NCBI GenBank assembly: GCA_022432975.1
Contig: CM039510.1
Coordinates: 8,772,414 to 8,836,413, forward strand
Length of the DNA stretch: 64,000 nucleotides
Source: Begonia masoniana
Lineage: Eukaryota; Streptophyta; Magnoliopsida; Cucurbitales; Begoniaceae
Direction: 5' to 3'
Shown: piece by piece, positions 7,948 through 63,970 of the stretch
How positions within the stretch are numbered: the stretch's first letter is position 1
How the letters are laid out: each line of letters opens with the position of its first letter
The notes under the pieces: generated by a model
The model's database searches: none
What the model was told of the DNA's origin: nothing
Seen by the model: the letters and a program-made list of their open reading frames with translations, nothing else
Translations under genes and position numbers: made by a program

Positions 7948-9306
7948 AAACCTCAGAGCAGATATATGTCTGGCTGCAGCAACCACCCCATGAGCTCGAT
8001 CCACCCTCTACATTAGATCATCACTTTGAGGAACAAGATCCTCAGTTTCGAGTTCAGTACCTACATCAGGGAGTTCACCTATGAGTCTAAAACTCAGTAA
8101 GGACATAATCAGAATGTAGTGGTGCATATGCAATGCATGAACTTTCAGAAATTCAGTGACAGAACAGAACATTACATTACAGTGGCAGAAGAATTAAGTG
8201 GGGCTTATAGGGGAACTGGTTCAGTAGGTGCACTATCAGGCACGGCAGTTTTTAGATTCCCAGGGAGGGATAAAACCAAAGGGTCCTTGCCAGGGACAAT
8301 ATTTTCAGATTCCCAGGGAGGGATAAAACCAGAGGGCCAGTCCCCGTCCCGCACTTAACCAGTACATTACAGACAGTCAGATTTTATCTTGTTTAGTTTC
8401 AAACCGTGTACAGAAATCAGTTTTTGCATGGATTTTCAGTAAAACGTGTATGCATGACATTCTCAGTGCCTGAACCTATAACAGCAGACATCAGAAATAA
8501 CAGGGCATATTATGAGACAGAAAACGGACAACTCAGAACGTGAACTGAACAGACAACACAGAACACAAACTGAACAGAAGCTATAACATTTCTACCCAAA
8601 ACTACCCGACAGAACAGGAACCCTAGTACCTCGGTGATGTAGGGCCTTAAGGGCCAACCTACGGTTATGAACTTACCTGTTTGCTGTGGTGTCAGATGCT
8701 CAAATGTCCCTGGAATGCTCGGATCTGTAACATGAATGTACAGAATTTAAACGCTACAAATGCTAACTAATATCTCGTAGGAAATGCAGCAAACACACTT
8801 AAACACTTTAGAAAACACACCAACGTGTTTTCATCCAAAACAGGGAGTTTTCACCAAAAACCGAAACCCTAAACTTCGGTAAAAACTCACTTTAAACTTA
8901 TCCAAACTTGTTAGCATTAAAAGACGCTCACCTTTGCTGAAGAAAACGGAGAAATGCTGGAGAAACAAAGTGTGGAAGTTTTGTTTCAATCGCCTGGAAG
9001 AGAGAGCCAAGAGAGATGAGAGGAAGCAGAGAAGTGAATGAACATTCACGTAGGAGGATGAACTTAGCTTCCTCAGCAAGTTGCCACTTGGCAATCATCC
9101 ATTAATTTCTCCCACCAACCTTAATTTCTTCCCAATCTACCCCTCAATGCATTTCTAACTAAATGAATGTTTTGATTACACCCTAGTTTAGTTTTCCACT
9201 AAACATTCCAACAATTCCACCAAAACATTCATTTGTATTAATACAATAATAATCCCGTATAAATGATCCGGGAAAACTACTACATGGAAAAATGCCGGGT
9301 GTTACA
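7948..9306 (-). mobile_element. Reverse LTR R1, 5' part (rest cut off by LTR Q)
   Basis: Read on the minus strand it starts TGTAACACCCGGCATTTTTC at 9306 and aligns by eye with the reverse LTRs at 14189-17444 and 37271-50351, sharing the GTCTGGCTGCAGCAACC stretch and the CCCAGGGAGGGATAAAACC repeats. It runs left to 7948, where LTR Q interrupts it; its 3' end lies outside the window. It is itself inserted in LTR P1, which continues at 9307. The candidate leader-intron arms are at 8630-8643 and 8060-8073, with a GTAAGT donor at 8676 on the minus strand. Confidence 0.75.
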
Positions 9307-13122: not shown

Positions 13123-13389
13123 TCGTCAAAATCTCACATCGCTTGGAGAAGTGTGTGGAAATGAAACATATGTAAAGAGACCCTCCCAACATAGCAAGAC
13201 GCGTTTTGGAGCACAATTGACAACGGATCCCATAAGAACTCCGAAGTTAAAAGTGCTTCGGCGAGAGCAATTCCAGGTTGGGTGACCTTATGGGAAGTTC
13301 TCGCCAAACAAAGCCGTGAGGGGAGGATATTGGGCTACGGTCCAATCCCCAGAGCGGACAATATCTTACTGAGATAAGGAGTCGTTACA
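13123..13389 (+). mobile_element. Cassandra-type (TRIM) LTR
   Basis: A short LTR of about 267 bp, starting CGTCAAAATCTCACATCGC and ending CGGACAATATCTTACTGAG ... GTCGTTACA, the layout known for Cassandra retrotransposons. It carries a 5S rDNA-derived block. A polypurine tract (ATAAAAAGGGGG) lies just before it, so it is a 3' LTR. It ends exactly against remaining exon-d bases of TAD2 copy 1 (13390), so the element was inserted in that exon. The other LTR is outside the window, separated by nested elements. Confidence 0.8.
13221..13304 (+). other. 5S rDNA-derived block in the Cassandra LTR
   Basis: CAACGGATCCCATAAGAACT and what follows matches the 3' two thirds of plant 5S rRNA, including the internal polymerase III promoter boxes (A-box region GAAGTTAAAAGTGC, intermediate element GGCGAGAGCA, C-box GGTTGGGTGACC), with scattered substitutions. 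It is an LTR component, not a 5S gene: the first third of 5S is absent. Confidence 0.85.
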
Positions 13390-15165
13390 ATCTATACTCA
13401 GTATGGGTTTTTCATGCTAATATTGTGTATTGTGAAGACATTTTTATTCCAGTGAATTACCATTGTTGATTAGTTTGTCCTTATTATGTTTATACTCAAA
13501 AATGGTTTTTGTTTTCAAATTCGTTGTCTTATTTAGGTATAAAGGAGGTATATTATGGTTGTGGAAATGATAAATTTGGAGGTTGTGGCTCTATATTGTC
13601 CCTTCATTCAACTAACTCTCTGGCACTTAAAAGGTTTGCTTCTAATTTCAAACCATTCCATCAGATTCAATCCCGATTTGACTTGCTGATTTAGTTAGGC
13701 AAATAAGAAAATACTGAGCCATATAAAATTACCATCAAGAAAACATGTGTAAATCTAACTTATTCATTGATTTTTTTTTTGGAAAGAAAATTATTCCACT
13801 ATATTCATTCAAATTTGATATATGCACGCTAATGTACGAAGAACCTATTCGACGAAATAATCCTCCATTAAATCTCTAGAAACTTAGGATCTGAAAAAAA
13901 AAAAAAGATTATATTGTAATCTCTTTTATGTAATTGAAATAATATTATTTTAAAATAGTCTAAACTAACTTTGATTGTGATTTTCACATTTTTAGTTTCA
14001 TTTGATTTTGAATTCACATAGTATATATTTTTTTCATCTAAAAGAAATTTAGGAACAAATAAAAGGCACCATGAAAGTTTTATCCCATTAATTAAAGGTT
14101 TTTAATCATTTTGGTATTACTTTTTAGCAATCACTTTCTTCTATGAACTTAAGTACTTCACAAATAATAATACTTTGTAGTGTTGATATGTGACAGCCCG
14201 GAATCGAACCCGATCGGGGTTCGGGATCGGAGCCATCACTCCGGGACAGTTAACAGAAACCGGGGACTATTTTTTTTTTTTAACATTATACTTTTAAACT
14301 GGGGGCAGACAGAATTACAGAAAAGAGAAAGACAGAAAACATTACCGACTGAACTTTTAAAACTTTAACAGAGAACAGAATCGAATGACTGTCATCGCAA
14401 ACCCTAAAAAGAAACGTAACTTTGCAGAGGGGGAGAAACTATAGTGAGTAACAGAAAGCATTTACAGGGAGAGAGAGAGAGTCCTCGGGTGTAGAAATTT
14501 AAAACAGGTTTCAATAATGGATAACAAAACAGAAATTAGCATAAGGCTAGCGGAGGAGGAAGCAGGAAACATTGGCGGAAGACTTAGTTTAAAGGAGCAG
14601 CAGAAGACTTGAATGACGACAGCCGGAAGATGTAAATGCAAAGACAGAAGCGAAGATGACGTCAGGCGGAAGATTAGAGCTATCGGTGGATTCAGATACG
14701 ACAAAAGACGAACAGTATTCAGCGGAAGAGGCTGAGTAAAACTGGGCAGACAAGGTGGTGACGTCAGCCGGAAGATGGGTGACGTCAGGTGGAAGACACA
14801 GACAGTAACTGAGATCGGATGAGGAGATGACGTCAGCCGGAAGATGGATGACGTCAACCGGAAGATATAAGCATATACTGGCGGAAAAACTGGGATGACG
14901 TCAGCCTGAAGACTTATTTACACTGGGCGGATGACTTTGATGACGTCAGCCGGAAGACATATTTACACTGGGTGGATGACTAAGGCATATAACTGGGGCG
15001 GATGACAGAATTGACTTTGACTGGGGCAGATCCGAAGATGGATGACGTCAACCGGAAGATATAAGCATTACTGGCGGAAAAACTGGGATGACGTCAGCCT
15101 GAAGACTTATTACACTGGGCGGATGACTTTGATGACGTCAGCCGAAGACATATTTACACTGGTGA

Positions 15166-15680: not shown

Positions 15681-16199
15681 TCAAGGCAGAATTTGACAAC
15701 TCTTTAATAGAAAGACATACCAACAGAGAGTAGAAAAACAGAAAACCTAAAATCTCAGATTCTCAAACCAATTCAAAACATGGTTCTCGAACACAACAGA
15801 AGGCATAACAGAAACTTAGGAAGAATTACACTGCATGGATAGCTCTAAAACCAGAGATCCATCCATGCACAGACTATAAGAAAATATTCCAAACAATTCC
15901 AGAATACTTCAGAATGTAATTCAACTGTCAAATACAGAGGTTTTAAATATCGACACAGAACCCATACATTGTTTTAAAATCTCAAAGACAGTACAGGACT
16001 TAACATATAAATTACAGGATTTATCAAAAGGGGAGTTTTCTACAGAGTTTTTAACACAAAACCAGAATTTCAGAAAGCTTTACAAAAACCTCTAAACAAA
16101 TTTCATGTCTGGCTGCAGCAACCAAACCCCCATGAGCTTGATCCACCAGCACCTAATCATCAGACTGAGGCACAAAATCCTCGTTTTCGGGTTCAATAC

Positions 16200-16774
16200 C
16201 TACATCAGAGAGTTCACCTATGAGTCTAAAACTCAGCAAGAACATAATACAGATGCAGTGATGCAGAATGCTATGCATGCGATTTTCAGAATACAGTGAC
16301 AGAATATAACTTTACATTTCAGTGGCAGAGGGGTATAAGTGGGGCTTATAGGGGAACTGGCAAACAGATGGTGCACTATCAGGCATAGCAGATTTTTCAG
16401 ACTCCAAGGAGGGATAAAACCAGAGGGTCCTTGCTAGGGACAATTTATTTTCAGATTCCCAGGGAGGGATAAAACCAGAGGGCCAGTCCCCGTCCCGCAC
16501 TTAACCAGTACATTACAGATAGTCAGATTTTATCTTGTTTAGTTTCAAACAGTGTACAGAAAACAGTTTTGCATGAGCTTTCAGAGAAAGTCGTGTATGC
16601 ATGAACGATGCCTGAACTTAAACTGGCAGACAACAGAAATAACAGAACATACCATGAAGACGAACACAGACAACTCAGAAACATAAACTATAACCTTTCT
16701 ACCCAAAACAACCCGACAGAACAGAAAACCTAGTACCTCCGAGATGTAGGGCCAGCCTACGGATATGAACTTAC
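16200..16774 (-). promoter_or_regulatory. Candidate leader intron of LTR R0
   Basis: On the minus strand a GTAAGTTCATA donor (16774) is followed by CCTACATCTCGGAG, and the acceptor side reads CTCTCTGATGTAG/GT at about 16200. Eight bases of the arms pair perfectly and the rest partly. This is the weakest pairing among the reverse LTRs. Confidence 0.4.
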
Positions 16775-20280: not shown

Positions 20281-20861
20281 CCAAAAACCCTTAAAAATGC
20301 CTGTTTTAACCTTTCCTCACTTTTCTACACTTTTCTTCACTCCGAACACCTCCAAAAATCCCGAAACTTTAACCATACCTCCCCGACTCCCAAATCTTCA
20401 ACTCCCGTAAAAATTGTAGAAAACCGACTTGAAACGGATATTAATAAAAATAGCTAACTTAAACCCGATATCGTTTGTTTTAAAATAAAAAATGACAGCA
20501 TAACGCCTAAATTTCTTTAAACCAAAACCTGCAAATAAAACCGGAAAATATATATTTTCAAATTCCCAAATACGACAACCAATATCCACAATACCACCGA
20601 CTCAAAAACTTAAAAATAACTACGAAAACATTTACAAATACACGTACTAAATCCTCCACGTCATCTAAGTTGTTTGAAACCAAAATTCTTACAAAACCAT
20701 CGGAAAACTAACTATCACAAAACCTTCACCTCCCACACTTCCCGAGGAAGAAAGTAGCCGAGACGCCCCAACAATAACCTGCATCAGTGCACCCCGTACT
20801 CCTCCGACTGCGGCCTAGTCCTCGGCTGTCTCATCTAATTCACCTGTAAAGAACTCGTCAC

Positions 20862-21583
20862 CTACACCATAGAACACAAAAAGGTAAGCCTAACGCTTAG
20901 CAAGTAGGGAAGTAATGCACATAACACACCAAATGCTTGACTCAACCCTAATATGCAGTTTCTACACCCTCCGTTGTTTTCTTCTCGTTCTGGTTACATT
21001 TATCTTCCACTTTCCTGTGAATCAAGTAGGCACACGCCCCAACACAATCCTAGACGGCCACGCCTTGATCCACGGAGCAAGACCGGAGGCACACGCCCTA
21101 ACACAATCCTAGACGGCCAACCAAATCTCCCTCAATCGATCGTAGAATCCTCATTGTGCTTTCAAGCACGAGCATATCGAGGCATTCATACTCACGACAC
21201 ATTACGTACATTAGCATAGCATCTCAAGTAAAATCCCCACGGGGTGCTCAGCGAGCCACGTGCCCGACGAGGCTTTTCTACTCGAGACCAAGTTGCATAG
21301 CATCTCTAATAAAATCAATCACGGGGTGCTCAGCGAGCCACGTGCCAGATGAGGCTATTCGACTAAAGACCAAGTTGCATATCAATTTTCTTATCTTACA
21401 TTTCATCCTCACCACTCAAGCATGCAAAACACGTGGTTTCGTAGTTAGAAAAAGATGATGCATGACACACGATGCATGACACCAATTAAAACATAGCAAC
21501 AAACAAACATAGCAAACAAACAATCATTCCCTATCGTTCTATGGTGTAGGCCCGAAGGCAACAAACACACATCCACTACTTAC
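20862..21583 (-). promoter_or_regulatory. Candidate leader intron of LTR S1, compensated arms
   Basis: Minus strand: donor CAG/GTAAGTAG at 21583, a GCCTTCGGGC hairpin, left arm CCTACACCATAGAAC (21550-21536) and right arm GTTCTATGGTGTAG/G (20875-20861). The arms are 15/15 complementary although three positions differ from the A/B/Q version, so both partners changed. Two 81-bp copies around CACGGGGTGCTCAGCGAGCC (21239, 21320) fill part of the interval. Confidence 0.6.
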
Positions 21584-24471: not shown

Positions 24472-25033
24472 GGTTTTGTAGGAATTTCATGAAAATAGTC
24501 GGGTTATGTTAGGAAATATTCGATAGGGTTGTATTTACGATTATTGAGCGTTATTTGGTGAAATGAATGGTGTATTCGAAGTTGGGTTGAAATGTCGGGT
24601 TTGAAGCTATGAGAAATCCTATTAATGGAGTTTAGGGTTATTGGTGAGCATAAGTTTCTCGATGAAATGCCCGAGAGAGTTAAATTAGAGTTTTAGGAAA
24701 TTTCCTTAGTTAAAGGTTTCGTTAATTTGGACGTTTACGGTTTAAACTCGTTCTGACGACAAATGTTGTGAATTGCCTTAGGTGAACAACGCTCGTGGAC
24801 GGAGTCTGAGTTTCTACGGACGACAGGTAAGTTCTCGTGACTTACTGTGGCCGATTGACCTACGCCATGCGTCGATGTTGCGTTGAGGATTGTGGATCTT
24901 TGATTGTTTAATTGCTTTGGTTGGGTAGTTAGGACTAGTTGCCTTTATAGGTTATGTTTTTATTGTCTTGATGGTATACATATTGTATGTTTATGTTGTG
25001 CATTTAATTGTCCATGCATCATGTTTTTGAATA

Positions 25034-27176
25034 TGTAGCACCCGGTTTCAATTAAACCGAATTTAACTTATCAATTAATGATGTGCAATTTCATGGAAGA
25101 ATTGGGAGAGTTATTGGTTAGGTTAATGAGTGACTAAGCAAGGGTATTTATGTAAATTTGGCAATTTAAAAGTAGATAACCAATTTAAGGGAAGGGGTTT
25201 AGAGATTTATGTACTGTAGCCGCCACTGTTTCATCATTTATTCCTTTTCAGTGTCCAGCTCAAGCTCAGCAGAGCTCTCGACGAATCTTCCACCAGACTC
25301 TTCTTCTATCTAAGTAAGTTTTTCCCCCATTTCTTATATTTTAGCAGTTAGATAGCCGAGGGAGTCCAATGCGAGGGTTTCGAGGATGCTATAGATGAGT
25401 GTCAATTTCAGTTTAGTGCAGTATCGGGAATGCATTATGACCAGAGTTCTCAATTAGTTTCCTTAGGTCTCTGGTTGAATAGGATGAAGTTTAGTGAAGG
25501 TTTAATTAATGATCAATTTATGAATTTAGGTTCGAGCTAATTTCCGGAGGAGAATTCAACCAAACCATCCAGAAGACCAGGTAAGTAAATTATGCATGTG
25601 CCTTCGGGCCTACATCACAAAACAGTAGGGTTATGTATTTTGGGAATGATTTTGTATGTCATGCATCATTTTTTAAAAGATTACGAAAATGAATTTCCAT
25701 GTAAGAACGATAAGGTATGAACTGTATGTGACAGACAAACTATTAAGGGAACTAATCCACCCCTTAACTTATGAAGGGATTTATAACATTGGGAGAATTG
25801 ATCCCACTCCCAAGGGAACAGAGGGATCAGATCAGCTATTAAGGGAATTCATCCGCCCCTTAATCGAGTAGAGGATGTATAACATTGGGAAAATTGATCC
25901 ACTTCCCAAGGGAACCGAGGGATCAGATCAGCTTATGAACGTATGTAAATGCAACTGAGATGTGAAAGTAGAAATTGCATGTTTAGGAAATTATGTTTCA
26001 GCATTTCATTTCATTACAGCTTTACTTACTTAGCATTAAGCTAATAGATGAGTTTTGTGATGTAGGTGAAGAAGTGACAGCAGGTGAATCCTCTGAGTTC
26101 ATTGAGGGGTAGACTGGTTGGGGGAGCATACTTATGCCACGGATCTGGTACTTGATGAGGCTGTTTAACTGATGTCTGTTGGAGTGAAGGTGTAGTTGAC
26201 AATGTTTCGATTTGAATAGGTTGAGTTCTCATGACAGTAGTTGTTTCAATGTTTTGAAAATGTTTTGAGTTTCCTTTTCTGATAATAGTATTCTGCTGAG
26301 ATTTGATGTTGGCACTTGCTGGATTGTTTTGAGTATTGCATTGGTTAGAATGGTATTTGAATGGTTTCAGTAATGTAAGTAGGTTCTTTTCTGTAGTTAG
26401 AGTCATGTTGTATAGCAAGGAGTTGTAGGTATGTCGCTCTGTCCTCTATCGGTAGATGATGTCTATCGGTAGATGTCGAGTTATAGCTATGTTGTCTATC
26501 AGAAGATGTCTTCAGTTAAGCCATCGGATGATGTCTCAGTAAAGTCACCGGTACATGAGGTTTATTCTATCGGAAGATGTAGAATTCGCCCTACCTGTAT
26601 GAGTGGGTATTATGCTTGTCGTTTAGTGATCGGTATATGCAATTTACCCTATCGGAAGAAGGGGATGAGAGATTTTATCGTTTTGCTATCGGCAGATGCA
26701 AGTCGTAAAACTTGTCGTTTGCGATCGGTTGATGTTGGATATTGATTTATCCGGCTGACGTCATCGGTAGATGCAGTCTACAGAGTGATGTCTTTTGTTT
26801 CCAACTCTTCTGGTCCACGTCATCGGTGGAAGCCTTCTATTTTCTGTTCCTGTTCCTTCCGTTGACTTTATCCATTGGTAGATGTGTTTGACTTCTGCGA
26901 CTTCTCTAGTATTCAACTGTTTAAACTTAATTTTCTATTTGCCGATTGTTTCTTAACAATTCAAACAACGTTTCGTAGTTTTGTTTACCTTCATTGTTGT
27001 TCAAATGATTTCCGCTGCAAGCATTTAAATGTTTTGAAGTTTTCTTTTTTTTTTTAAAAAAAAAAAGGGATGTTAAATTTAGACTTTCGAGCGAGTTTTA
27101 AATTTAGTCCAAGGTTTCTTAGTTATGTACGGGCTTATGAGTAACAAACCGAGTTCAGATAATTCGGGGCGTTACA
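25034..27176 (+). repeat. 5' LTR of element A
   Basis: TGTAGCACCCGG ... GGGGCGTTACA. The TATA-like box reads AATTTAAGG at 25182 where the 3' LTR has TATTTAAGG at 31969. Leader-intron signals are at 25581-26065. A run of ATCGGTAGATG-type motifs fills 26450-26890. Confidence 0.95.
25581..26065 (+). promoter_or_regulatory. Candidate leader intron of element A 5' LTR
   Basis: CCAG/GTAAGT (25581), left arm CCTACATCACAAAAC (25609-25623), right arm GTTTTGTGATGTAG/G (26052-26066). Between them are four hairpins with stems of 7-8 bp (TTAAGGG/CCCTTAA and TTGGGAG/CTCCCAA types) and loops of the form AAYTNATCC. The 3' LTR repeats it at 32369-32853. That it is spliced is inferred. Confidence 0.6.
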
Positions 27177-27179
27177 GTA

Positions 27180-27190
27180 TGGTATCAGAG
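27180..27190 (+). other. Primer-binding site of element A
   Basis: TGGTATCAGAG, complementary to the 3' end of initiator tRNA-Met, three bases after the 5' LTR. Confidence 0.9.
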
Positions 27191-27330
27191 ACATTCAGTT
27201 AAACCGTTCAAAAGATTACTCATCAGTGCCAATCGTTGCATGGAGGTACTCCAACAACTGTAAGTGTTTATCTTAACCTTAGCTATTAGAAGATTAAGGG
27301 TGAACTTAACCTTGTACAAGAATATAACAA

Positions 27331-30300
27331 ATGTCTAGACGACCAGGAAGACCAAGATTACCGAGAGAGATACCGAATCCGAGGCGGGAGGAGGACTCTA
27401 GTGTAATTAGGCAGCTGACCGAATTGATGCGTCAGCAGACTGATATAGTACGTCAACAGTCTGATCAATTAGGAGTGCTGTTGAGCCGGGAGACACAAGG
27501 AAGTGCCAACTCGGGTTCTAGCAGTGAACACTCTGGAGATAGATTCAGGAGACTAAGACCACCCACGTTTGATGGACAGTCATCTGACCCAGTTATTGCT
27601 GAAGGATGGCTTAGAAAAATCGAGAGTATGTTTAGGTGTGCCAATGTTGGAGAGGAGGACAAAGTCACGTTGGCCACGTTCCATTTGGCTGGTGAAGCTC
27701 AACTCTGGTGGGAAACGATAGAGACCACCACAGATGTCTTGGCGATGCCTTGGTCACAATTCAAGGACATATTCTATGGGAAGTATTTTAACAGCACGGT
27801 CCAAACCGCGAAGAAGTTGGAGTTTCTGAATTTGAAGCAGACAGGATCGGTGGCAGAGTACAGTAGGCAATTTGAGTCCTTGTCCAGGTTTGCTGGACAT
27901 TTTGCTCATAAGGACGATGATAAGGTGTTCAAATTTGTGCATGGACTGAAGCCGGAGATTTACCGAGGAGTCAATGGCATCAAAGGCTTGACATTTAGTG
28001 AAGTTGTGTCCACTGCTCTGGAAGTGGAAGAAGCTGAAAGGAAGTGTGCCGGACCAAAAGAGGTTTCGCAAAAGTTTATCCAGCCACACCATCAGAGGGG
28101 AGTGAAGAGGCCAAGTGAAGGCCAAAATAACCAAGGATCTGGAAAGAAGGTACTGAATACCCAGAAGTTCCCTCAGTGCCCGAAATGTTCAAAGAATCAC
28201 TTGGGGAAGTGTAGATTTGGATCGGGTAAGTGCTTCAACTGTGAAGAGGTTGGACACTTGTACAAGGATTGCCCAAAGCCCCAGGTCATTCGATGTTTCC
28301 ATTGCAACAAGGTTGGCCATGTCAACAGAGACTGCCCAGCTTTGAAGGATGGCCCTGTCAAGATTAAGCCAAGAATATTCTCCATGATGGAGTCCTGTGA
28401 TGAGGACCGGCCTACTGTGGTGTTAGGTACAATACTGATCAACTCTATACCTGCTTTTACTTTGATAGATTCGGGTGCAACACATTCTTTTATAGCCTCT
28501 GCATTTGCTGACAAGTTAAACGTACGGTTTACTTCTTCCGAACATGTGTTCAAAGTTGCCCTACCCTCTAGTGAACGCATGCACTCTAACCAAATGATGC
28601 CCGATAGTGTTGTATTAGTAGGAAACATGAATTTGCCTGCCGATCTCATCGTTATGGATATATTGGGATTTGATGTAATCCTAGGAATGGATTGGTTATT
28701 TAAACATTTTGCCACAATAGATTGTAGGACTAGAGTTGTCAGTTTTCAACCCCCTAGAGGTTTAAACCATACCTTCCAAGCTCAAAAGAAGAGTAAGAAA
28801 ATGACTGTAATGACTTCTATCGATTGTAGACCCTCCTCATGCAGGGAGTATTTGTGCTTTTTGGCCAATGTTTTAGACGCACAAGATGTTTTAGTTGTCC
28901 AAGATTTTCTGGAAGTATTCCTAGATGACCTACCTGGCTTGCCGCCAGATAGGGAGATTGAATTCGTTGTGGACGTCTACCCAGGCGCTGAGCCTGTATC
29001 TAAGAATCCATATAGATTAGCACCAACAGAACTTAAGGAATTGAAGAAGCAGTTAGAGGATTTATTAGAAAAAGGGTTCATACGCCCTAGCTTTTCACCG
29101 TGGGGTGCACCTGTTCTTTTCGTCAAAAAGAAGGATGGATCAATGCGTATGTGCATTGATTATAGAGAAATAAATAAGTTAACTGTCAAGAATAAGTATC
29201 CTTTGCCAAGGATTGACGACTTATTTGACCAGCTGAAGGGTGCAAGAGTTTTCTCTAAGATTGACCTTAGATCCGGTTATTATCAGTTGAAAGTCAAATC
29301 AGAGGATATTCCTAAGACAGCTTTTCGCACAAGGTATGGGCATTATGAGTTTTTGGTTATGTCCTTTGGATTGACTAATGCGCCAGCAGCCTTCATGGAT
29401 CTTATGAATATGGTGTTTCATGAATACTTAGATAAATTTGTCATAGTGTTCATTGATGATATTTTAATTTATTCCCGTTCCAAGGACGAGCATGCTAGAC
29501 ACCTGACCTTAGTGTTGAAAGTGTTAAAACAGCACCAACTTTACGCCAAGTTTTCCAAGTGTGAATTTTGGTTGGACCAAGTTCACTTTCTTGGTCATGT
29601 GATCTCTGGAGATGGAATATCCGTTGATCCAGCTAAGGTCCAAGCAGTTAAGGAATGGCCCCAACCGGAGAGTGCTACTGATATTAGGAGTTTTCATGGG
29701 TTAGCAGGATATTATAGGAAGTTCATTGAAGGATTTTCAAAGATTGCTACACCCCTTACTAGGTTAACGAGGAAGAATGTGAAGTATATGTGGACTGAAG
29801 AATGTGAACGTAGCTTTCAGACCTTGAAACAGAAACTGACCAATGCCCCAATCTTAACCCTTCCAGTTGAAGATGGTAAATTTAGTATTTATTGTGATGC
29901 TTCCAAAATTAGACTAGGTTGTGTGTTGATGCAAGATGGAAAGGTTATAGCTTATGCTTCTAGGCAGTTAAAAGTACATGAAAAGAATTACCCTACACAT
30001 GACTTAGAATTAGCTGTTGTGGTCTTCGCATTAAAGATTTGGAGGCACTATCTGTATGGACAAACTTGTGAGATATTTTCGGATCATAAAAGTCTGAAAT
30101 ACATTTTCACGCAAAAGGAACTGAATATGAGGCAACGTAGGTGGTTAGAGTTTGTCAAAGATTATGATTTTGAGATTAAGTACCGCCCTGGCAAGGCGAA
30201 TGTAGTGGCTGATGCTTTGAGTAGAGTGACCCCTTCAGTCTCTGCATTGACTCTAGACATACCGATAGCTTTAGAGACAGAATTCCAAAGATTTAACCTG

Positions 30301-31785
30301 GAAGCTGTGTCTAGTATGACGGCTATGCTTTCGGCCATATCTTTAAGGCCTACCATTTTGGAGAAAATAAAGGAAGTTCAAATGAATGACACTGAATGCA
30401 ATAAGTATAAGTTGTGCATGGATTCTACTGACAAGCCGGATTTCAACTGCTCAGTTGATGGAATTCTCAAGTTTCGGAATAGATGGTTTGTTCCGGCTGA
30501 TACTGAACTTAGGAAGGGAATCCTATCTGAGGCACATTCTTCTAGACTCTCTGTTCATCCTGGGAGTACGAAAATGTACAGAGATCTCAAGCAACATTAT
30601 TGGTGGCCAGGTATGAAAAGAAGTGTGGCGGAGTATGTGGAGTCCTGTCTGATCTGCCAACAAGTCAAAGCTGAACATCAGAGGCCTGCTGGAACGTTAC
30701 AACCTTTACCAGTTCCCGAATGGAAATGGGAACAAATAACGATGGACTTTGTTATAGGATTACCTAGAGCAGCAAAGGGTCACGATGCAATTTGGGTAAT
30801 AGTTGATCGTTTAACCAAATCTGCTCACTTTCTGCCAATGAAGGTAACATACTCGATGGATCAACTGGCTGAGTTGTATGTGCACGAAGTTGTTAGACTG
30901 CATGGAGTTCCAAGCACCATAGTTTCAGACCGAGACACTATATTTACTTCTAAGTTTTGGAAAAGTTTGCACAAGGCTATGGGAACACAGCTTAGTTTTA
31001 GCACAGCTTTCCACCCTCAAACAGATGGACAATCCGAAAGGACTATTCAAACATTAGAAGATATGCTCTGTGCCTGTGTCTTAAACTTTCAAGGTTCATG
31101 GAGCAAATACTTGTCCTTGATTGAATTTTCTTATAATAACAGTTTTCAGACAACAATAGGCATGGCACCATACGAGGCATTGTATGGACGGAAGTGCAGA
31201 TCCCCATTGTATTGGGATGAAGTTGGAGAAGCACAATTGATTGGTCCTGACATCGTACAGCAAACAGTGGAGAAAATTGCTCTTATTCGACAAAGAATCT
31301 TGACAGCTCAAAGCCGGCAGAAAAGCTATGCAGACAAAAGGCGAAGAGAACTGGAATTTGAAGTAGGTAATGAAGTTTTCCTTAAAGTGTCACCTTTCAA
31401 AGGAGTGGTGAGATTTGGAAAGAGAGGAAAGTTGAACCCCAGATTTATTGGACCATTCACTATTCTGAAGAGAGTTGGGAGAACAGCCTACCAGTTACAA
31501 CTACCAACTTCTATGGGAGGGATACATGATGTGTTCCATGTTTCCATGTTGAAAAAGTGCATAAGAGATCCAAACCAAGTCGTGGGACAGCAGGACTTTG
31601 AGATTCATCCTACCCTTGCCTATGAAGAGAAATCAGTAAAGATCTTAGATTATGCAGTGAAGGTATTGCGCAACAAAGAAGTTCCACTAGTAAAAGTCTT
31701 ATGGCACAACCAGAACAGAGAGGAGACCACTTGGGAGCGCCAGCAAGACATGATGGACCAACATCCAGAATTATTCAGGTACTGA
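27331..31785 (+). CDS. Gag-Pol polyprotein of element A (1484 aa, open)
   Basis: A retrotransposon polyprotein in one uninterrupted frame. In order: Gag with a capsid-like region (about 70-230), two CCHC zinc knuckles (C-F-N-C-E-E-V-G-H near 300 and C-F-H-C-N-K-V-G-H near 321), an aspartic protease (D-S-G-A-T-H-S-F near 380), reverse transcriptase (K-I-D-L-R-S-G-Y near 643 and F-I-D-D-I near 706, both catalytic motifs intact), RNase H (Y-C-D-A-S near 852), integrase with an HHCC finger (1069-1110) and a D, D, E set (M-D-F-V, S-D-R-D, S-E-R-T), and a C-terminal chromodomain-like end ([14 protein letters not shown]). The chromodomain end and long LTRs point to the Tekay/Del clade. The ATG at 27331 begins a basic R-R-P-G-R-P-R segment also present in element B. 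No lesion is visible, so it may still be active. Confidence 0.95.
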
Positions 31786-31805
31786 ATTTTGAGGACAAAA
31801 TTCAT

Positions 31806-31820
31806 TTAAGGAGGGTAGAT
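31806..31820 (+). other. Polypurine tract of element A
   Basis: TAAGGAGGGTAGAT lies directly before the 3' LTR; the same tract precedes the 3' LTR of element B. Confidence 0.85.
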
Positions 31821-33964
31821 TGTAGCACCCGGTTTCAATTAAACCGAATTTAACTTATCAATTAATGATGTGCAATTTCATGGAAGAATTGGGAGAGTTA
31901 TTGGTTAGGTTAATGAGTGACTAAGCAAGGGCATTTATGTAAATTTGGCAATTTAAAAGTAGATAACCTATTTAAGGGAAGGGGTTTAGAGATTTATGTA
32001 CTGTAGCCGCCACTGTTTCATCATTTATTCCTTTTCGGTGTCCTAGCTCAAGCTCAGCAGAGCTCTCGACGAATCTTCCACCAGACTCTTCTTCTATCTA
32101 AGTAAGTTTTTCCCCCATTTCTTATATTTTAGCAGTTAGATAGCCGAGGGAGTCCAATGCGAGGGTTTCGAGGATGCTATAGATGAGTGTCAGTTTCAGT
32201 TTAGTGCAGTATCGGGAATGCATTATGACCAGAGTTCTCAATTAGTTTCCTTAGGTCTCTGGTTGAATAGGATGAAGTTTAGTGAAGGTTTAATTAATGA
32301 TCAGTTTATGGATTTAGGTTCGAGCTAATTTCCGGAGGAGAATTCAACCAAACCATCCAGAAGACCAGGTAAGTAAATTATGCATGTGTCTTCGGGCCTA
32401 CATCACAAAACAGTAGGGTTATGTATTTTGGGAATGATTTTGTATGTCATGCATCATTTTTTAAAAGATTACGAAAATGAATTTCCATGTAAGACCGATA
32501 AGGTATGAACTGTATGTGACAGACAAACTATTAAGGGAACTAATCCACCCCTTAACTTATGAAGGGATTTATAACATTGGGAGAATTGATCCCACTCCCA
32601 AGGGAACAGAGGGATCAAATCAGCTATTAAGGGAATTCATCTGCCCCTTAATCGAGTAGAGGATGTATAACATTGGGAAAATTGATCCACTTCCCAAGGG
32701 AACCGAGGGATCAGATCAGCTTATGAACGTATGTGAATGCAACTGAGATGTGAAAGTAGAAATTGCATGTTTAGGAAATTATGTTTCAGCATTTCATTTC
32801 ATTACAGCTTTACTTACTTAGCATTAGGCTAATAGATGAGTTTTGTGATGTAGGTGAAGAAGTGACAGCAGGTGAATCCTCTGAGTTCATTGAGGGGTAG
32901 ACTGGTTGGGGGAGCATACTCATGCCACGGATCTGGTACTTGATGAGGCGGTTTAACTGATGTCTGTTGGAGTGAAGGTGTAGTTGACAATGTTTCGATT
33001 TGAATAGGTTGAGTTCTCATGACAGTAGTTGTTTCAATGTTTTGAAAATATTTTGAGTTTCCTTTTCTGATAATAGTATTCTGTTGAGATTTGATGTTGG
33101 CACTTGCTGGATTGTTTTGAGTATTGCATTGGTTAGAATGGTATTTGAATGATTTCAGTAATGTAAGTAGGTTCTTTTCTGTAGTTAGAGTCGTGTTGTA
33201 TAGCAAGGAGTTGTAGGTATGTCGCTCAGTCCTCTATTGGTAGATGATGTCTATCGGTAGATGTCGAGTTATAGCTATGTTGTCTATCGGAAGATGTCTT
33301 CAGTTAAGCCATCGGATGATGTCTCAGTAAAGTCACCGGTACATGAGGTTTATTCTATCGGAAGATGTAGAATTCGCCCTACCGGTATGAGTGGGTATTA
33401 TGCTTGTCGTTTAGTGATCGGTATATGCATTTTACCCTATCGGAAGAAGGGGATGAGAGATTTTGTCGTTTTTCCATCGGCAGATGCAAGTCGTAAAACT
33501 TGTCGTTTGCGATCGGTTGATGTTGGATATTGATTTATCCAGATGATGTCATCGGTGGATGCAGTCTACAGAGTGATGTCTTTTGTTTCCAACTCTTCTG
33601 GTCCACGTCATCGGTGGAAGCCTTCTATTTTATGTTCCTGTTCCTTCCGTTGACTTTATCCATCGGTAGATGTGTTTGACTTCTGCGACTTCTCTAGTAT
33701 TCCACTGTTTAAACTTAATTTTCTATTTGCTGATTGTTTCTTAACAATTCAAACAACGTTTCGTAGTTTTGTTTAACTTCATTGTTGTTCAAATGATTTC
33801 CGCTGCAAGCATTTAAATGTTTTGAAGTTTTCTTTTTTTTTTTAAAAAAAAAAAGGGATGTTAAATTTAGACTTTCGAGCGAGTTTTAAATTTAGTCCAA
33901 GGTTTCTTAGTTATGTACGGGCTTATGAGTAACAAACCGGGTTCAGATAATTCGGGACGTTACA
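31821..33964 (+). repeat. 3' LTR of element A
   Basis: A near-identical copy of the 5' LTR, ending GGGACGTTACA with one change from GGGGCG. It has an intact TATTTAAGG at 31969, leader-intron signals at 32369-32853 and arms at 32397-32411 and 32840-32854. Confidence 0.95.
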
Positions 33965-34009
33965 GAATAAGCATAGAAAATGAATTTTCGCACTACGTTT
34001 TCATGAAAA

Positions 34010-35075
34010 GGAAATGAATAGTGAAAAGGTAGAAAATGAAGAGCGAAAAGGTAGAAAATGAATAGCGAAAAGTAGGGGTGTGCAAACCGAACCGGAACCG
34101 GTGAATTAGGTTCGGTTTTCATCGGTTTTGAGCATAGGTTCGGTTCGAATCGGTTTCATTTTATAGGAAACAGTGAATTAGGTTCGGTTTTCGGTTTGGA
34201 TCGGTCAAAACCGATCAAAACCGAACCGAACCGGACCTTAACTAAAAAACACAAAAAAAATCAAAAAAATTAAAGTTGGTCGAAAGTTCTAATTCTTTAA
34301 CAAAACTGGTGTGAGGTTCTCTCTAAAACTATATATCTTTTGAAAGCATGCTTGGAAATATTGCCATCAGATTACTATTAATTCTTTTTTTGGCAACAGT
34401 CCTGAACTGCCAAACCAATCCAAACCATTGTGTAGTGGATGGTTTGGTAAATACTTGAGAATTTTGAGTTTGTGTCATTATAGTTTCTTAGATTGTATAT
34501 TTAGTTTGGTTGGGTTTAGTTTAATTTTTTATGGATATTTATTGATTTGGTCTCATTTTCATGATTAATTTATTAACTTTCAGCAATAACTGGTTTTGTT
34601 ATGAAAAAGTGTTCAAAACCGACTTATTCCCAGTAGACTTACAATCCTTTTGAGGTTGTTTTTTTGAATACTTGTACATATTTAATTTGACTATATATCT
34701 AATTGTTTTTTATCTCTCCCAATTTAAATTTACATTTTTTTTTATTTTTTGGAAAATAGGTTGTAAAACCGAAACCGAACCGAAACCGAACCAAAAGTTT
34801 AGGTTCGGTTTTGGTATGCTGCAAAACCGGTTTCAGTTTTGTAATTCCGAAACCGAAACCGATCGATTCGGTTCGGCTTCTCTCCAAAACCGAACCGAAA
34901 CCGGTTTTGCACACCCCTAGCGAAAAGGTAGGAACATATGTGAAAAGAAAATGAATAGCGAAAAGGTAGGAAATGAATAGCGAAAAGGTAGGAAATGAAT
35001 AGCAAAAAGGTAGGAAATGAATAGCGAAAAGGTAGGAATGTATGTGAAAAGGAAATGAATAGCGAAAAGGTAAGA
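34010..35075. repeat. AATAGCGAAAAGGTAGGAAATG tandem tract in LTR O
   Basis: Short direct repeats of about 20-22 bp built on GCGAAAAGGTAG, interrupted by the hAT element. The hAT target duplication GCGAAAAG is one repeat word. Confidence 0.8.
34073..34919. mobile_element. Non-autonomous hAT-like element 1
   Basis: Terminal inverted repeats TAGGGGTGTGCAAA and TTTGCACACCCCTA, an 8-bp target duplication GCGAAAAG (34065-34072 and 34920-34927) and subterminal clusters of CCGAACCGAAACCGG words in both orientations. It has no transposase. The 847-bp element is related to the one at 54017-54570. Confidence 0.88.
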
Positions 35076-35430
35076 TGATTGCATGATTTTACGAACCGCA
35101 TACGCATAGCACGCATCTTCATTTACGAGACTTGCTGAGCCTTTATCTCATAGTTGTCTGTATGGCATAGGTGATCTTGATACAGGTGAGGACGAGATCC
35201 CTCCACCCGAGGAATGATCAGTTGAAGAAAGATGGCCCGTGAGAGTGTGCTGGTGTAGTTGGTACGCTTTTTAACCCGTGGGAAAGTAAGTAAATGTTTT
35301 GATGATTGAATAGATAGAGTCGTAGGAAAATTGTATAGATAGAACATTATAGGATATTGGTATCTGGATATCTGATAGTTTGATGTTTTGGGAAACTTGT
35401 TTTATAACATGCTTTGTTAAACCTTTTATT

Positions 35431-37872: not shown

Positions 37873-39410
37873 CGTAAATTATAAGGCAACAGTGGATGAA
37901 ATTTTAAAGCAGCGGAGGATGCAATCAGAAGACATAGTTTTAAAAGCAGAATTTGACAACTTTTAACAGGAAGACAAACAAACAGAGAGCAGAAAAACGG
38001 AAAACATAAAAATCTCAGATTCTCAAACCAATTCAAAACATGGTTCTCGAACACAACAGAAGGCATAACAGAAACTTAAGAAGAATTACACTGCATGGAT
38101 AGCTCTAAAACCAGAGACCATCCATGCACAGACTATCAGAAAATATTCCAAACAATTCCAGAATACTTCAGAATGTAATTCAACTGTCAAATACAGAGGT
38201 TTTAAATATCGACACAGAATCCATACATTGTTTTAAAATCTCAAAGACAGTACAGAACTTAACATGGATTTCCAGAATTCATTATAACAGAAGTTTTTAA
38301 AACAGGAATATAGAACTTCAAAACCTTTCTTTCTCTGGACAGATTTATGTCTAGTTGCCACAAACACACCCCATGAGCTCGACCCGCCAACTACATCAGA
38401 TCATCATCTTGAGGCACAAGGTCCTCATTCACGGGTTCAGTACCTACATCAGGGAGTTCACCTATTAGTCTAAAATTCAGTAAGAACATATATATATTTA
38501 TGCAGTGATGCAAAATGCTATGCATGCGGTTTTCAGAATACAGTAACAGAACATTTCATTACGTTTCAGTGGCAGAGGGGTATAAGTGGGGCTTATAGGG
38601 GAACTGACAAGCAGAGGGTGCACTATCAGGCACATTCAGTCATTCAGCAGTTTTTCATAATCCCAGGGAGGGATAAAACCAGAGGGTCCTTGCTAAGGAC
38701 AATTTCTTTTCAGAATCCCAGGGAAGGATAAAACCAGAGGGCCAGTCCCCGTCCCACACTTAACCAATACATTTCAGTCAGATTTTATCTTGTTTAACTT
38801 CAAACCGTGTACAGAAAACAGTTTTGCATGAACTTTCGGGAAAAACGTGTATGCATGAGCATCTACTGTTGTAGCACCCGGTTTAATCACGATCTAATTA
38901 TTTAATCAAAGCGTGAGACATTATTGTTATGGAGGATTAATGACTAGGTTAATGTATGACTAAAGGAGGGCAGTATGGTAATCTGATAGTAATAAAGGTT
39001 AACGTATTTAAGGAAACTATTAATGAAGTAGCCGCCACTATTTATTTCATTTTTCCCCTCCATTCTCAGCTCCTCAGCTTAGCAGAGCGCGATAGGAGAC
39101 CCCCTTCGACTTCCTCCAGTGATTTCCTCCGAACTAGGTGAGTTTTGCTTCTATTTCTTGTTACATTGTGTCTATCGTTGGTAGGAGGGATGATAAATGA
39201 GGTTTTGAGAAGGCGGTAAGCGAGTGGTGGTTTCGGTTTAAGTTGAAATCGGGAATGCACAATGACTAGAGTTCCCAAAACAGTTTCCCTTAGATTTCTA
39301 GTGGTTTAGAATGAAGATTGGAGGAAATTTAATGTATGCTCTGTCTATGGTTTTAGGTTTGAGTAATACCCGAAGTAGCTTGAAACCAAGTTTTATTTCC
39401 AGGAGACCAA

Positions 39411-39960
39411 GTAAGTGAAGTATTGTGTGTGCCTTCGGGCCTACATCACAAAACAGTAGGTTAATGCATGTTTGAGTATTTTCTGTATGTTATGCATCAT
39501 GTTTTTGAAAAAATACGAAAATGAACTTTCATGTAATATTATGGTAAGGTGAGTACAGATTTAACTGCATTGGCGGTTAAGGGAACTAATCCACCCCTTA
39601 ACTGATTATGAGGATTTATAGCATTGGGAGAATTGATCCCACTCCCAAGAGGTCTGAGGGATCAGAATAGCTATTAAGGGACTTCATCCACCCCTTAACT
39701 GATGAAGAGGATGTATACAGATTGAACTGCCCTGGCGGTTAAGGGACTTCATCCACCCCTTAACTGATTATGAGGATGTATAGCATTGGGAGAATTGATC
39801 CCACTCCCAAGGGCAATCAAGGGATCTGATCAGTAGACAAACGATGTGCGACTAAGATGAGAAAGTAGAAACTGCATATTAGGTTTCATGTTTCAGCTTG
39901 TCATTTCATTATTGCTTTACTTACTTAGCATTAGGCTAATAGATGAGTTTTGTGATGTAG
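39411..39960 (+). promoter_or_regulatory. Candidate leader intron of element B 5' LTR
   Basis: GTAAGT, then the GCCTTCGGGC hairpin, CCTACATCACAAAAC, hairpins of the TTAAGGG/CCCTTAA and TTGGGAG/CTCCCAA types, and GTTTTGTGATGTAG/GTGAAG. A CTAAT branch-point-like word lies about 20 bases before the acceptor. The 3' LTR repeats it at 47780-48330. Confidence 0.6.
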
Positions 39961-40485
39961 GTGAAGAAGTGATAGCAGGTGTGCTTTCTGAGTCTACTGA
40001 GGACTAGACTGGTTGGAGGTGTGCATCCTTGTAATAGACTGGCAGCTGATGGGGCGGTTTAACTGGTGTCAGTGGTTGTGAAGGTTTAGTGAACATTGAT
40101 TTCAATTTGAGTATGTTAAACTTTCTAATGAAAGAAGTTGCTTGGATGTTTTCAAAAATATTTTGAGACCCTTCTGAAGTTAGTATTCCGTTAGTTTTAA
40201 TACTGGATTTTTACTGGATTTTGAGAAATGCAACGATTTGAATTATTTCTGAATGTTTCAGTAAGGTGAGTAAATTCCTTCTGTAGTTAGAGTTGTGTTG
40301 TATGGCTAGAAGTAGTTGGAGTGTCACTTTGAACTCTATCGGTAGATGGTGTCTATCAGTGGGTGTTGAGATGTAATTCTATTTTTTTTGGAAGATGAAG
40401 TTTTATTTTCATCGGAAGATTTAGCTGTATTTCTATCGGAAGATGTAAGTAGGAAAATTGTCGTTTAGTGATCGGTATGTGAAGT

Positions 40486-42173
40486 TTAGTCGATCGGATG
40501 AGGAAATCATCCGGCTGACGTCACCGGTGGATATAGAGTAAAGTCGATCGGATGAAGAAATCATCCGGCTGACGTCGGAAATCATCCGGCTGACGTCATC
40601 GGTGGATATAGAGTAAAGCCGATCGGATGAGGAAATCATCCGGCTGACGTCACCGGTGGATATAGAGTAAAGTTGATCGGATGAGGAAATCATCCGGCTG
40701 ACGTCACCGGTGGATATAGAGTAAAGTCGATCGGATGAGGAAATCATCCGGCTGACGTCACCGGTGGATATAGAGTAAAGTCGATCGGATGAGGAAATCA
40801 TCCGGCTGACGTCACCGGTGGATATAGAGTAAAGTCGATCGGATGAGGAAATCATCCGGCTGACGTCACCGGTGGATATAGAGTAAAGTCGATCGGATGA
40901 GGAAATCATCCGGCTGACGTCACCGGTGGATATAGAGTAAAGTCGATCGGATGAGGAAATCATCCGGCTGACGTCACCGGTGGATATAGAGTAAAGTCGA
41001 TCGGATGAGGAAATCATCCGGCTGACGTCACCGGTGGATATAGAGTAAAGTCGATCGGATGAGGAAATCATCCGGCTGACGTCACCGGTGGATATAGAGT
41101 AAAGTCGATCGGATGAGGAAATCATCCGGCTGACGTCACCGGTGGATATAGAGTAAAGTCGATCGGATGAGGAAATCATCCGGCTGACGTCACCGGTGGA
41201 TATAGAGTAAAGTCGATCGGATGAGGAAATCATCCGGCTGACGTCACCGGTGGATATAGAGTAAAGTCGATCGGATGAGGAAATCATCCGGCTGACGTCA
41301 CCGGTGGATATAGAGTAAAGTCGATCGGATGAGGAAATCATCCGGCTGACGTCACCGGTGGATATAGAGTAAAGTCGATCGGATGAGGAAATCATCCGGC
41401 TGACGTCACCGGTGGATATAGAGTAAAGTCGATCGGATGAGGAAATCATCCGGCTGACGTCACCGGTGGATATAGAGTAAAGTCGATCGGATGAGGAAAT
41501 CATCCGGCTGACGTCACCGGTGGATATAGAGTAAAGTCGATCGGATGAGGAAATCATCCGGCTGACGTCACCGGTGGATATAGAGTAAAGTCGATCGGAT
41601 GAGGAAATCATCCGGCTGACGTCACCGGTGGATATAGAGTAAAGTCGATCGGATGAGGAAATCATCCGGCTGACGTCACCGGTGGATATAGAGTAAAGTC
41701 GATCGGATGAGGAAATCATCCGGCTGACGTCACCGGTGGATATAGAGTAAAGTCGATCGGATGAGGAAATCATCCGGCTGACGTCACGGTGGATATAGAG
41801 TAAAGTCGATCGGATGAGGAAATCATCCGGCTGACGTCACCGGTGGATATAGAGTAAAGTCGATCGGATGAGGAAATCATCCGGCTGACGTCACCGGTGG
41901 ATATAGAGTAAAGTCGATCGGATGAGGAAATCATCCGGCTGACGTCACCGGTGGATATAGAGTAAAGTCGATCGGATGAAGAAATCATCCGGCTGACGTC
42001 ATCGGTGGATATAGAGTAAAGCCGATCGGATGAGGAAATCATCCAGCTGACGTCACCGGTGGATATAGAGTAAAGTTGATCGGATGAGGAAATCATCCGG
42101 CTGACGTCACCGGTGGATATAGAGTAAAGTCGATCGGATGAGAAAATCATCCGGCTGACGTCACCGGTTGATG
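40486..42173. repeat. 54-bp minisatellite in the 5' LTR of B, about 31 units
   Basis: Each 54-bp unit has the hairpin CGGATGA/TCATCCG (loop GGAAA), the palindrome TGACGTCA and ACCGGTGGATATAGAG. One unit is shortened near 40577 and one base is missing near 41786. The 18-residue repeat encoded on the minus strand follows from the unit length and is not a gene. Confidence 0.95.
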
Positions 42174-42573
42174 TAGGATGTATTTTGTCGTTTTGTGACC
42201 GGATGGTGTAGCCGAAACCTTGTCGTTTTGTTATCAGGAAAAGCCTTCTGTTTTCTATGTCAGTTCCTTCTGGTTGACTTCGTTCTTCGGATGATGTGTT
42301 TGACTTTATTAAATTTTAAGTATTTCACGCCTAAACCTTTATCCCTTCCGACTGAATTATTTTCTTAATATTTTATTCGATCATTCAAACACTGTTGCAT
42401 AGTTTTGCTCAACTCTATTTCGCTCGAAGATCTTTCCGCTGCAAGTTTTCATGTTTTATCAAACGTTAAAATTTAAATTCCGAAGGAAGTTTTAAATTCT
42501 GTCCAAGGTTTCTTAGTAATATCCGGGTTTTTGAGTAACAAACCGGGTTCAGAAAACTCGGGGCGTTACAGTA

Positions 42574-42584
42574 TGGTATCAGAG
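42574..42584 (+). other. Primer-binding site of element B
   Basis: TGGTATCAGAG, matching the initiator tRNA-Met 3' end, three bases after the LTR, as in element A. Confidence 0.9.
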
Positions 42585-42725
42585 ACATTGAGTTAAACCG
42601 TTCAAAAGATTACTCATCAGTGCCAATCGTTGCATGGAAGTACTCCAACGACTGTAAGTGTTTATGTTAGCCTTAGTAACTAGATGTTTTTGAAAGTAAT
42701 TAACCTTATACAGGAATCCAGTATA

Positions 42726-43858
42726 ATGGCTAGACGCCCAGGAAGACTTAGAGTGCCTAGAGAAATGCCAAACGTAAGAGGTGAAGAGGAGCCTAGTGTG
42801 ATTAGGCAGCTGACAGATTTGGTGCGTCAGCAGACTGACATAGTGTGACAACAGTCCGACCAATTAGGAGTGTTATTGAACCGAGAAGCACAAGGAAGTG
42901 CCAACTCGGGCCATGGCAATGAGCATTCTGGAGACCGATTTCGCAGGCTTCAACCGCCCACATTTGATGGAAGATCATCTAACCCGATTGTTGCTGAAGA
43001 ATGGTTAAGGAAGATTGAGAGCATGCTCTGATGTGCCAACGTCGGAGAAGGAGATAAGGTCACCCTGGCAACGTTTCATTTTGCTGGAGACGCTCAGCTT
43101 TGGTGGGAGACAATTGAGACCACCACTGATATTCTGGCTATGACTTGGTCTCAGTTTAAGGACACCTTCTTTGAGAAGTATTTTAGCAGCACCGTTCAGG
43201 CCGCGAAGAAGGTGGAGTTCATGAACTTGAAGCAGACAGGATCCGTGGCCGAGTATGTTAGACAATTTGAGTCTCTTTCCAGATTCGCTGGACACTTTAT
43301 TCACAGAAACGAAGATAAGGTATTCCAATTTATGAATGGACTGAAGCCAGAGGTGTACAGAGGGGTCAAGTATTCAGGTTTTAAAGGTTTGCCTTTCAGT
43401 GAAGTTGTGTCCATAGCCTTGGAGGTGGAGGAAGCCGAGATAAAATGTTCTGGGCCGAAGGAAGTCCCACGAAAGTTCGTTCAACCCCAACAACAGAGAG
43501 GAATGAAGAGGCCAAGTGAGGGCCAGTATAGTCAAGGAATGGGAAAGAAAGTACCAGATACTAAGATGTTTCCTCAGTGCCCAAAGTGTTCGAAGAACCA
43601 CCCGGGCGAGTGCAGATTTGGGACAAATAAATGTTTTAACTGTGAAGAGGTTGGACACTCGTTCAGGGATTGCCCAAAGCCTAGAATCATCCGTTGCTTC
43701 AACTGTAATAAAGTCGGCCATATCAACAGAGACTACCCAGCCTTGAAGGGCGGACCTGCCAAGATTAAGCCAAGAATATTCTCCATGATGGAGTCGGGTG
43801 ATGAGGACCAGCCTGCTGTAGTATCAGGTACCATATTGGTTAACCTGCTTTTACTTTG
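42726..43858 (+). pseudogene. Gag region of element B, broken
   Basis: Same start (M-A-R-R-P-G-R) and layout as Gag of element A. TGA stops at 42846-42848 (codon 41) and 43029-43031 (codon 102) interrupt it, and a 7-base deletion near 43843 relative to element A throws the protease out of frame. The last Cys of the second zinc knuckle is Tyr (43734-43736). The capsid and knuckle coding between 43140 and 43859 is otherwise readable. Confidence 0.9.

Positions 43859-60238: not shown

Positions 60239-63970
<3,732 letters not shown>

Follow-up and report, generated by a model that had tools for sequence, protein, structure and literature searches.

Pairing between the two sides of an intron has been described in yeast, where, according to the available parts of the papers, a stretch near the 5' splice site of RPS17B pairs near the branch point in a zipper stem that affects splicing (PMC2536676), and RPL7B also contains a zipper-stem intron (PMC12311795). 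Splicing is inhibited when a theophylline aptamer sequesters the branch point, as stated in the accessible text of another study (PMC2275289). Plant LTR retrotransposons are generally without introns, Ogre and EVADE being given as exceptions in the portion of the source at hand (PMC12786077); the spliced elements treated in such portions are BARE, EVADE, Ogre and CRR (PMC3735527, PMC12786077), and for BARE separate RNA pools are described, the spliced RNA having to stay out of replication according to its authors (PMC3735527, in part).

The window analysed here is a whole stretch of 64,000 nucleotides from the 795-Mb genome of Begonia masoniana (G000:C9:8772414-8836413), in which LTR groups A, B, Q, S, R and O have one layout in common: a 15-nt arm1 pairs with an arm2 that overlaps an acceptor-like TGTAG|G. 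As in the yeast zipper stems, so far as the available text describes them, a stretch on the donor side pairs toward the branch-point side, and here this pairing is conserved by covariation; unlike those stems, arm2 overlaps the 3' splice site downstream of the branch-point motif, an extra hairpin lies on that branch-point-like motif, the intron is located in the LTR of a retrotransposon and the effect on splicing is putative. The theophylline design, as presented in the accessible text, resembles this fold in that RNA structure masks the branch point (putatively so in the LTRs), but it is artificial and controlled by a ligand, whereas the LTR fold is natural and has no known ligand. Spliced and unspliced RNA pools of one element, which are proposed below, would be a trait shared with BARE, EVADE, Ogre and CRR; however, the introns of those elements are in or between coding parts, and the parts of the sources available describe none in an LTR or with paired ends. 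In retroviruses splicing is restrained, as part of the RNA must stay unspliced as genome, and the likeness to the present elements is that some RNA must remain unspliced to serve in this way. We know of no retroviral intron that lies in an LTR and has its ends connected by a long-range helix. In open-licence PMC papers no description of an LTR leader intron with paired ends was found, so that its novelty is provisional, and for an intron in an LTR the open-licence literature gave one HIV vector paper. In the portions available, a paper on CRM elements (PMC3059260) makes no mention of introns or splicing, one on sunflower (PMC7730604) deals with splicing of other elements, Tekay being missing from its expressed set, and one on structured plant RNA (PMC12218528) does not mention transposons, retroelements or LTRs.

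Element A is a Ty3/gypsy LTR retrotransposon, an assignment made for A alone from its LTR pair, PBS and gag-protease-RT-RNase H-integrase order; its frame contains gag, protease, RT, RNase H and integrase zinc-binding domains, and no Pfam chromodomain was matched at E 0.001. Its LTRs (5', 25034-27177; 3', 31821-33965; both on the plus strand) form a 98.2% direct repeat with the ends TGTAGC...GTTACA, and TATGGTATCAGAG adjoins the 5' LTR. The leader in the 5' LTR consists, on the plus strand, of intron 1 (25314-25529, GTAAGT...TTTAG, without the shared arms), a short middle exon (25530-25580) and intron 2 (25581-26065, 485 nt, GTAAGT...TGTAG).

Because spliced RNA, if reverse transcribed, would leave LTRs with an exact exon junction, such LTRs are to be expected in the genome. 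At up to 3 mismatches, the junction pattern CAGAAGACCAG|GTGAAGAAGTGAYAGCAGG has 2 genome matches and none in the control, and both belong to the two LTRs of one element (G000:C9:42278024-42284138), which are 1,410 nt long, 98.1% identical and 6,085 nt apart; the element has a PBS, and its long frame has two stops. The segment 25581-26065, proposed as a candidate intron in the preliminary description, is absent exactly from both of these LTRs, and the acceptor thereby used is the one inside arm2. A wider junction pattern gave 19 matches and none in the control, of which two, at 0 mismatches, are again the LTRs of the intron-less element, and the other 17, at 2 mismatches each, have the letters of intron-bearing acceptors; hence one element without intron 2 has been found among A-like leaders, to which the evidence from exact losses refers. 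The upstream intron 1 was revealed by alignment with 15 other LTR starts and typically reads CTAG|GTRAGT ... TTTAG|GTGAGC. It is also missing, exactly, from the intron-2-less element, and a solo LTR (L028, 4407-6298, duplication TTAAC) is without intron 1 and retains intron 2 with its paired arms. The intron-1 spacing fits in 32 of 34 anchored copies of group A, the exceptions being L028, where the intron is absent, and L022, which is mis-anchored; the length is about 200-245 nt in the 24 copies with clear ends (8 are unclear), and none of these 24 has the shared arms in intron 1, a count made without a shuffled control. The intron-1 loss pattern has 1,450 matches and 0 in the control, a figure useless as a count of losses because intron-bearing acceptors also match at one mismatch (L007, L029); among the matches listed, 23 places match at zero mismatches. 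Acceptor-like TTAG|GT sites 46-55 nt before donor 2 in S1, S2 and O suggest an intron 1 there too.

These losses are what reverse transcription of spliced RNA would leave, and there seems to be little doubt that the leader contains a real spliceosomal intron. Plant introns are usually richer in U than their flanks, a common trait and not a defining one. Such enrichment was not found for intron 2 of A (29.9% against 32.9 and 37.9% in the flanks) and Q (30.7% against 32.7 and 27.0%). The density of ATG per 100 nt is 4.1 and 3.3 in intron 2 and 1.9-3.2 in the exons. Unusual stability of the whole intron was discarded as a general property, the z values obtained by folding with 60 shuffles each being -2.38 (A5), -1.82 (Q5), -1.27 (B), -0.65 (R1) and +0.36 (S1), and those of the controls -0.55 to +0.59.

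In the window, arm1 (CCTACATCACAAAAC) begins at 23, 25609, 32397, 39440 and 47809, and its exact reverse complement at 496, 26052, 32840, 39947 and 48317, which bears out at five copies each what had been stated in the preliminary description for A, B and Q. When up to 3 mismatches are allowed, CCTACATCACAAAAC has 15 matches in the window, whereas 100 shuffles gave a mean of 2.6 and a maximum of 7. The five introns, all on the plus strand, are those of the A 5' LTR (arms 25609-25623 and 26052-26066, the latter including AG 26064-26065 of the 3' splice site and the first base of the exon), the A 3' LTR (32369-32853; arms 32397-32411 and 32840-32854), B (1-509, donor outside the window; arms 23-37 and 496-510), and the 5' LTR (39411-39960; arms 39440-39454 and 39947-39961) and 3' LTR (47780-48330; arms 47809-47823 and 48317-48331) of the LTR retrotransposon Q, whose LTRs start from 38869 and from 47238. 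All window copies with their upstream side inside the window have GTAAGT before arm1, B being truncated by the window edge. Where the donor is visible, arm1 follows it at 28-35 nt across groups and at 28-29 nt in A and Q, in which arm2 is 443-508 nt downstream of arm1 and ends in TGTAG|G. The GT-AG consensus (GTAAGT and TGTAG|G) is present in the window copies and in most other genomic copies, some decayed copies deviating from it.

The S1, S2 and R copies are on the minus strand. S1 (20862-21583; arm1 21536-21550, arm2 20861-20875) differs from A at three arm positions, each of them compensated, and forms 15/15 pairs, as had been claimed. S2 (56646-57762; arm1 57715-57729, arm2 56645-56659) forms 14/15 pairs, in agreement with the earlier count, but the remaining cell, taken for a wobble, is A.C on the transcribed strand and not G.U, because these copies are on the minus strand. 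The R copies had been credited with 8 to 13 of 14 pairs; our count is 12-13 of 15, namely 12 in R1 (8061-8676; arm1 8629-8643, arm2 8060-8074), 12, one of them G.U, in R0 (16200-16774; arm1 16736-16750, arm2 16199-16213) and 13 in R2 (38443-49671; arm1 49657-49671, arm2 38443-38457, with the inserted element Q between them). In O (24827-35170, plus strand, donor at 24827), counted over arms 24859-24873 and 35157-35171, which are split by the inserted element A, the 10 Watson-Crick pairs stand and two G.U pairs in 15, instead of one wobble, accompany them. Across groups intron 2 varies from about 380 to more than 1,100 nt, with arm1 near the donor in all.

Several neighbouring features were also observed. 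A is nested within the LTR intron of O (24827-35171) and Q within that of R2 (38443-49671). A 69-bp tandem array (56694-57590) inside intron 2 of S2 explains much of the length of this intron, and the LTRs of Q differ strongly in length, a 54-bp tandem array (40488-42176; 48867-49131) being much longer in the 5' LTR. Tandem arrays of 27 bp (988-1702, 4473-7591) are open as long reading frames on both strands. The sole Rfam match in the window at gathering score, with none at the arms, is a 5S rRNA-like stretch (13203-13315, RF00001, 49.7 bits) that directly precedes a repeat (13390-14188 and 63003-63798, 93.5% identity); the two may belong to a Cassandra-type element.

The exact arm is matched 26,388 times in the 795-Mb genome (13,209 + 13,179), and the backwards-read control 1 + 0 times. 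No match to a 22-nt arm1 pattern was found in virus contigs, and an 18-nt acceptor pattern has 21 matches in prokaryote genomes, with titles all of bacteria or archaea, which is about the chance level by our estimate. Conservation was analysed in two samples. The first one comprises twenty regions of 10 kb from one contig, each surrounding an exact arm match, with flanks placed by BLAST and arms masked, and is biased as its regions were chosen by the exact arm. In its group A (35 donor sides and 37 acceptor sides) the mean majority share is 0.970 and 0.957 in arm columns and 0.789 and 0.812 in other columns, respectively; on the donor side none of 191 other 15-column windows is as conserved as the arm, and on the acceptor side 8 of 210 reach it, the adjoining hairpin being about equally conserved. 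The second sample was picked by the exon sequence downstream of the acceptor, ignoring the arms: from 40 candidates scored out of 3,932, 20 were used, two window copies and 18 others being omitted. These copies are close relatives of A and their differences are partly non-independent; all 20 contain both arms and the intervening intron, with arm2 intact in 20 and arm1 in 17, and GGTAAGT is unaltered in 18 (it is changed in L074, and L075 is rearranged upstream). Identity to A amounts to 596 of 600 positions in the arms and 7,029 of 7,220 in the intron body. The outcome that the preliminary description had named as telling against its view, arms no better conserved than their neighbours, was thus found in neither sample. 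Further stretches inside intron 2 are conserved as well.

Other groups were sought with a pattern composed of GTAAGT, a gap and GGGCCTACACC, which has 930 genome matches and 0 in the control; the 100 matches listed brought to light two further groups, T and O', besides several variants of S. At 16 of the listed places the best arm1 partner was searched for without presupposing its sequence. One S copy (L061) is wholly compensated (CACGGAAC with GTTCCGTG). The prediction of full-length partners failed for T and O', which form 12 and 11 pairs and leave the distal end unpaired. Outside group A the distal 3-4 pairs frequently fail, and S copies with CATGG pair weakly at positions 10-12. The pairing of 15-nt arms across families proposed earlier holds, with a shared helix core of just 11-12 bp.

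Both the upstream intron and a second conserved structure had been overlooked in the preliminary description. The latter is a 5-bp hairpin just upstream of arm2 (TNAGY/RCTNA or similar), present in seven groups: TTAGC/GCTAA in A (TTAGC-ATTAA-GCTAA, 26030-26044, plus strand), TAAGC/GCTTA in S, U and one T copy, TGAGC/GCTCA in one O copy, the other O copies having one pair changed, and TGAGT/ACTCA in R0 and R1. The branch-point consensus is YTNAY, and in each of the seven groups the 3' strand of the hairpin, extended by the following base, reads CTNAY (CTAAT, CTTAC, CTTAT, CTCAT, CTCAC); this sequence, which in A is at 26041-26045, identified by motif only, and 21 nt from the acceptor AG, is the likely branch point. 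Given the positions of arm2 and the hairpin, the pyrimidine stretch and the 3' splice site fall within one helix and the likely branch point within the other. By eye, a possible third helix joins AGTAGG, downstream of arm1, to a CCTACT-like stretch upstream of the hairpin in A and S, in an ambiguous register, and was left uncounted. A second AG|GTG, 18-21 nt downstream of the intron-2 acceptor (26066-26084 and equivalents) in many A, S and O copies, may be a tandem acceptor or a further donor.

For the covariation analysis, 36 distinct rows from seven groups were aligned (17 A, 9 S, 2 T, 3 O, 3 R, 1 U and 1 V). The alignment omits copies with arm indels (L001, L002, L016, L021, one copy each of L022 and L023, and the S copy of L025), L064, whose best partner resembles that of another group, L054-L057, with no 3' arm within 1.5 kb, L066, which nearly duplicates L065, copies with one side only, and copies identical in all 40 letters to an included row. 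In the arms and the hairpin, 93.6% of 720 cells are paired (shuffled, 86.3 ± 0.6), the covariation score is 0.281 (shuffled, 0.152 ± 0.009; slides by 1-3 columns, 0.068-0.130) and 60 cells are changed on both sides (shuffled, 23.4 ± 3.8), each value being reached in 0 of 500 shuffles, which ignore the relatedness of rows, so that counts out of 500 are not probabilities. The number of pairs with a double change (9 vs 6.5 ± 1.2, 22/500 as high) and that of further pair types (24 vs 21.9 ± 1.5, 69/500 as high) are near chance. The 720 cells comprise 642 Watson-Crick, 32 G.U, 15 A.C and 31 other mismatches, and the excess of G.U over A.C is as expected if pairing takes place on the transcribed strand. 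Compensated pairs are present in both helices. Taken together, A, S/T/U, O and R/V show each of the four possible combinations of arm pair 7-34 (U-A or C-G) with hairpin pair 17-24 (G-C or not), and for this reason at least one double change is recurrent, independently of the tree and barring recombination. Within group A alone the changes are mostly uncompensated decay. The covariation across LTR groups, which exceeds shuffles and slides, supports the earlier suggestion that compensation points to selection for RNA pairing; it is very probable that the pairing of the ends of intron 2 is under selection.

From the sequence we infer that intron 2 is spliced in living cells, where its branch point lies, how it folds in vivo and what the fold does, and these points could be combined as follows. 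The LTR would encode a 5' leader with spliceosomal introns, the downstream one (intron 2) carrying the conserved fold. Arm1, about 28 nt past the 5' splice site, would pair with the pyrimidine stretch and the 3' splice site (arm2), and the 5-bp hairpin just upstream of arm2 would tie up the likely branch point CTNAY. The fold, masking the branch point and the 3' splice site, would render splicing of intron 2 inefficient or regulated; the unspliced share of the transcripts would be the template for complete new LTRs, and the spliced share would be mRNA. It is likely that the pairing acts on splicing, and the best reading of its main effect is restraint of splicing, to which a probability of roughly 45% can be assigned. 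In favour of restraint, the 3' splice site and the branch-point-like motif are precisely the signals covered by arm and hairpin, and among A-like leaders only one intron-2-less element was found. If spliced RNA were copied, the progeny would lose the intron; as the intron is kept in very many copies, unspliced RNA is probably the form normally copied.

The sequence data favour neither restraint nor promotion of splicing over the other. In the case of promotion, the helix would draw the 5' splice site toward the branch point and the 3' splice site of a long and variable intron, and we consider this to be a rather doubtful, if serious, alternative. Arm1 comes soon after the donor in all groups despite the range of intron lengths, pairing in A shortens the path from the donor to the branch-point motif from about 460 to about 50 nt by our count, and yeast RPS17B operates in this way as far as the accessible text goes (PMC2536676). 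However, the acceptor AG lies within arm2 and the branch-point motif within the hairpin; both must open for splicing, and a zipper would require neither arrangement. The pairing on which the preliminary description built its suggestion that the splice sites are brought together is supported, but that suggestion is only one option, and masking is at least as likely because arm2 is itself the pyrimidine stretch with the 3' splice site and the hairpin holds the branch-point-like motif. The two effects predict opposite outcomes of breaking arm1.

It is unlikely that the folded leader serves another purpose (packaging, dimerisation, nuclear export or translation control, for instance) to which the pairing of the intron ends would be incidental: the additional conserved stretches within intron 2 are consistent with it, and so is the apparent copying of unspliced RNA, intron-less copies being rare, but both conserved helices are placed exactly on splice signals and the arms start and end at fixed positions relative to donor and acceptor. 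It is quite improbable that the precise losses were deletions between short direct repeats rather than products of splicing. Both ends of intron 2 bear AGGT, those of intron 1 bear a similar repeat, and a single element is without intron 2; nevertheless, with 4,526 pairs of 4-nt direct repeats spaced 150-600 nt apart in the A LTR, deletion would be unlikely to hit both introns exactly in one element, and a second, independent LTR lost intron 1 at identical points. The perfect inverted repeats of one fixed sequence in group A could also be a pair of matching protein sites in the DNA or the terminal inverted repeats of an ancient DNA transposon, but hardly so, given that pairing is kept with different letters in different groups, G.U cells exceed A.C cells (32 vs 15), the hairpin covaries too and, for the terminal inverted repeats, there is no target duplication (A has GGG before arm1 and TGA after arm2).

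If restraint of splicing is the main effect, the LTRs may contain, as we tentatively propose, a natural splicing attenuator in many groups, in which one fold divides the transcripts into spliced mRNA and unspliced genome. Such an attenuator, if true, would resolve in cis the conflict between translation and copying of one RNA. In plants, the way in which a retrotransposon RNA combines the roles of mRNA and genome is an open question, and an LTR intron whose ends are under selection to pair would be a concrete switch. It could be tested by compensatory mutation, and this genome alone offers thousands of natural variants. For annotation, leader introns in LTRs can pass for deletions or for LTR length variants, and LTRs driving host genes would supply ready-made splice sites.
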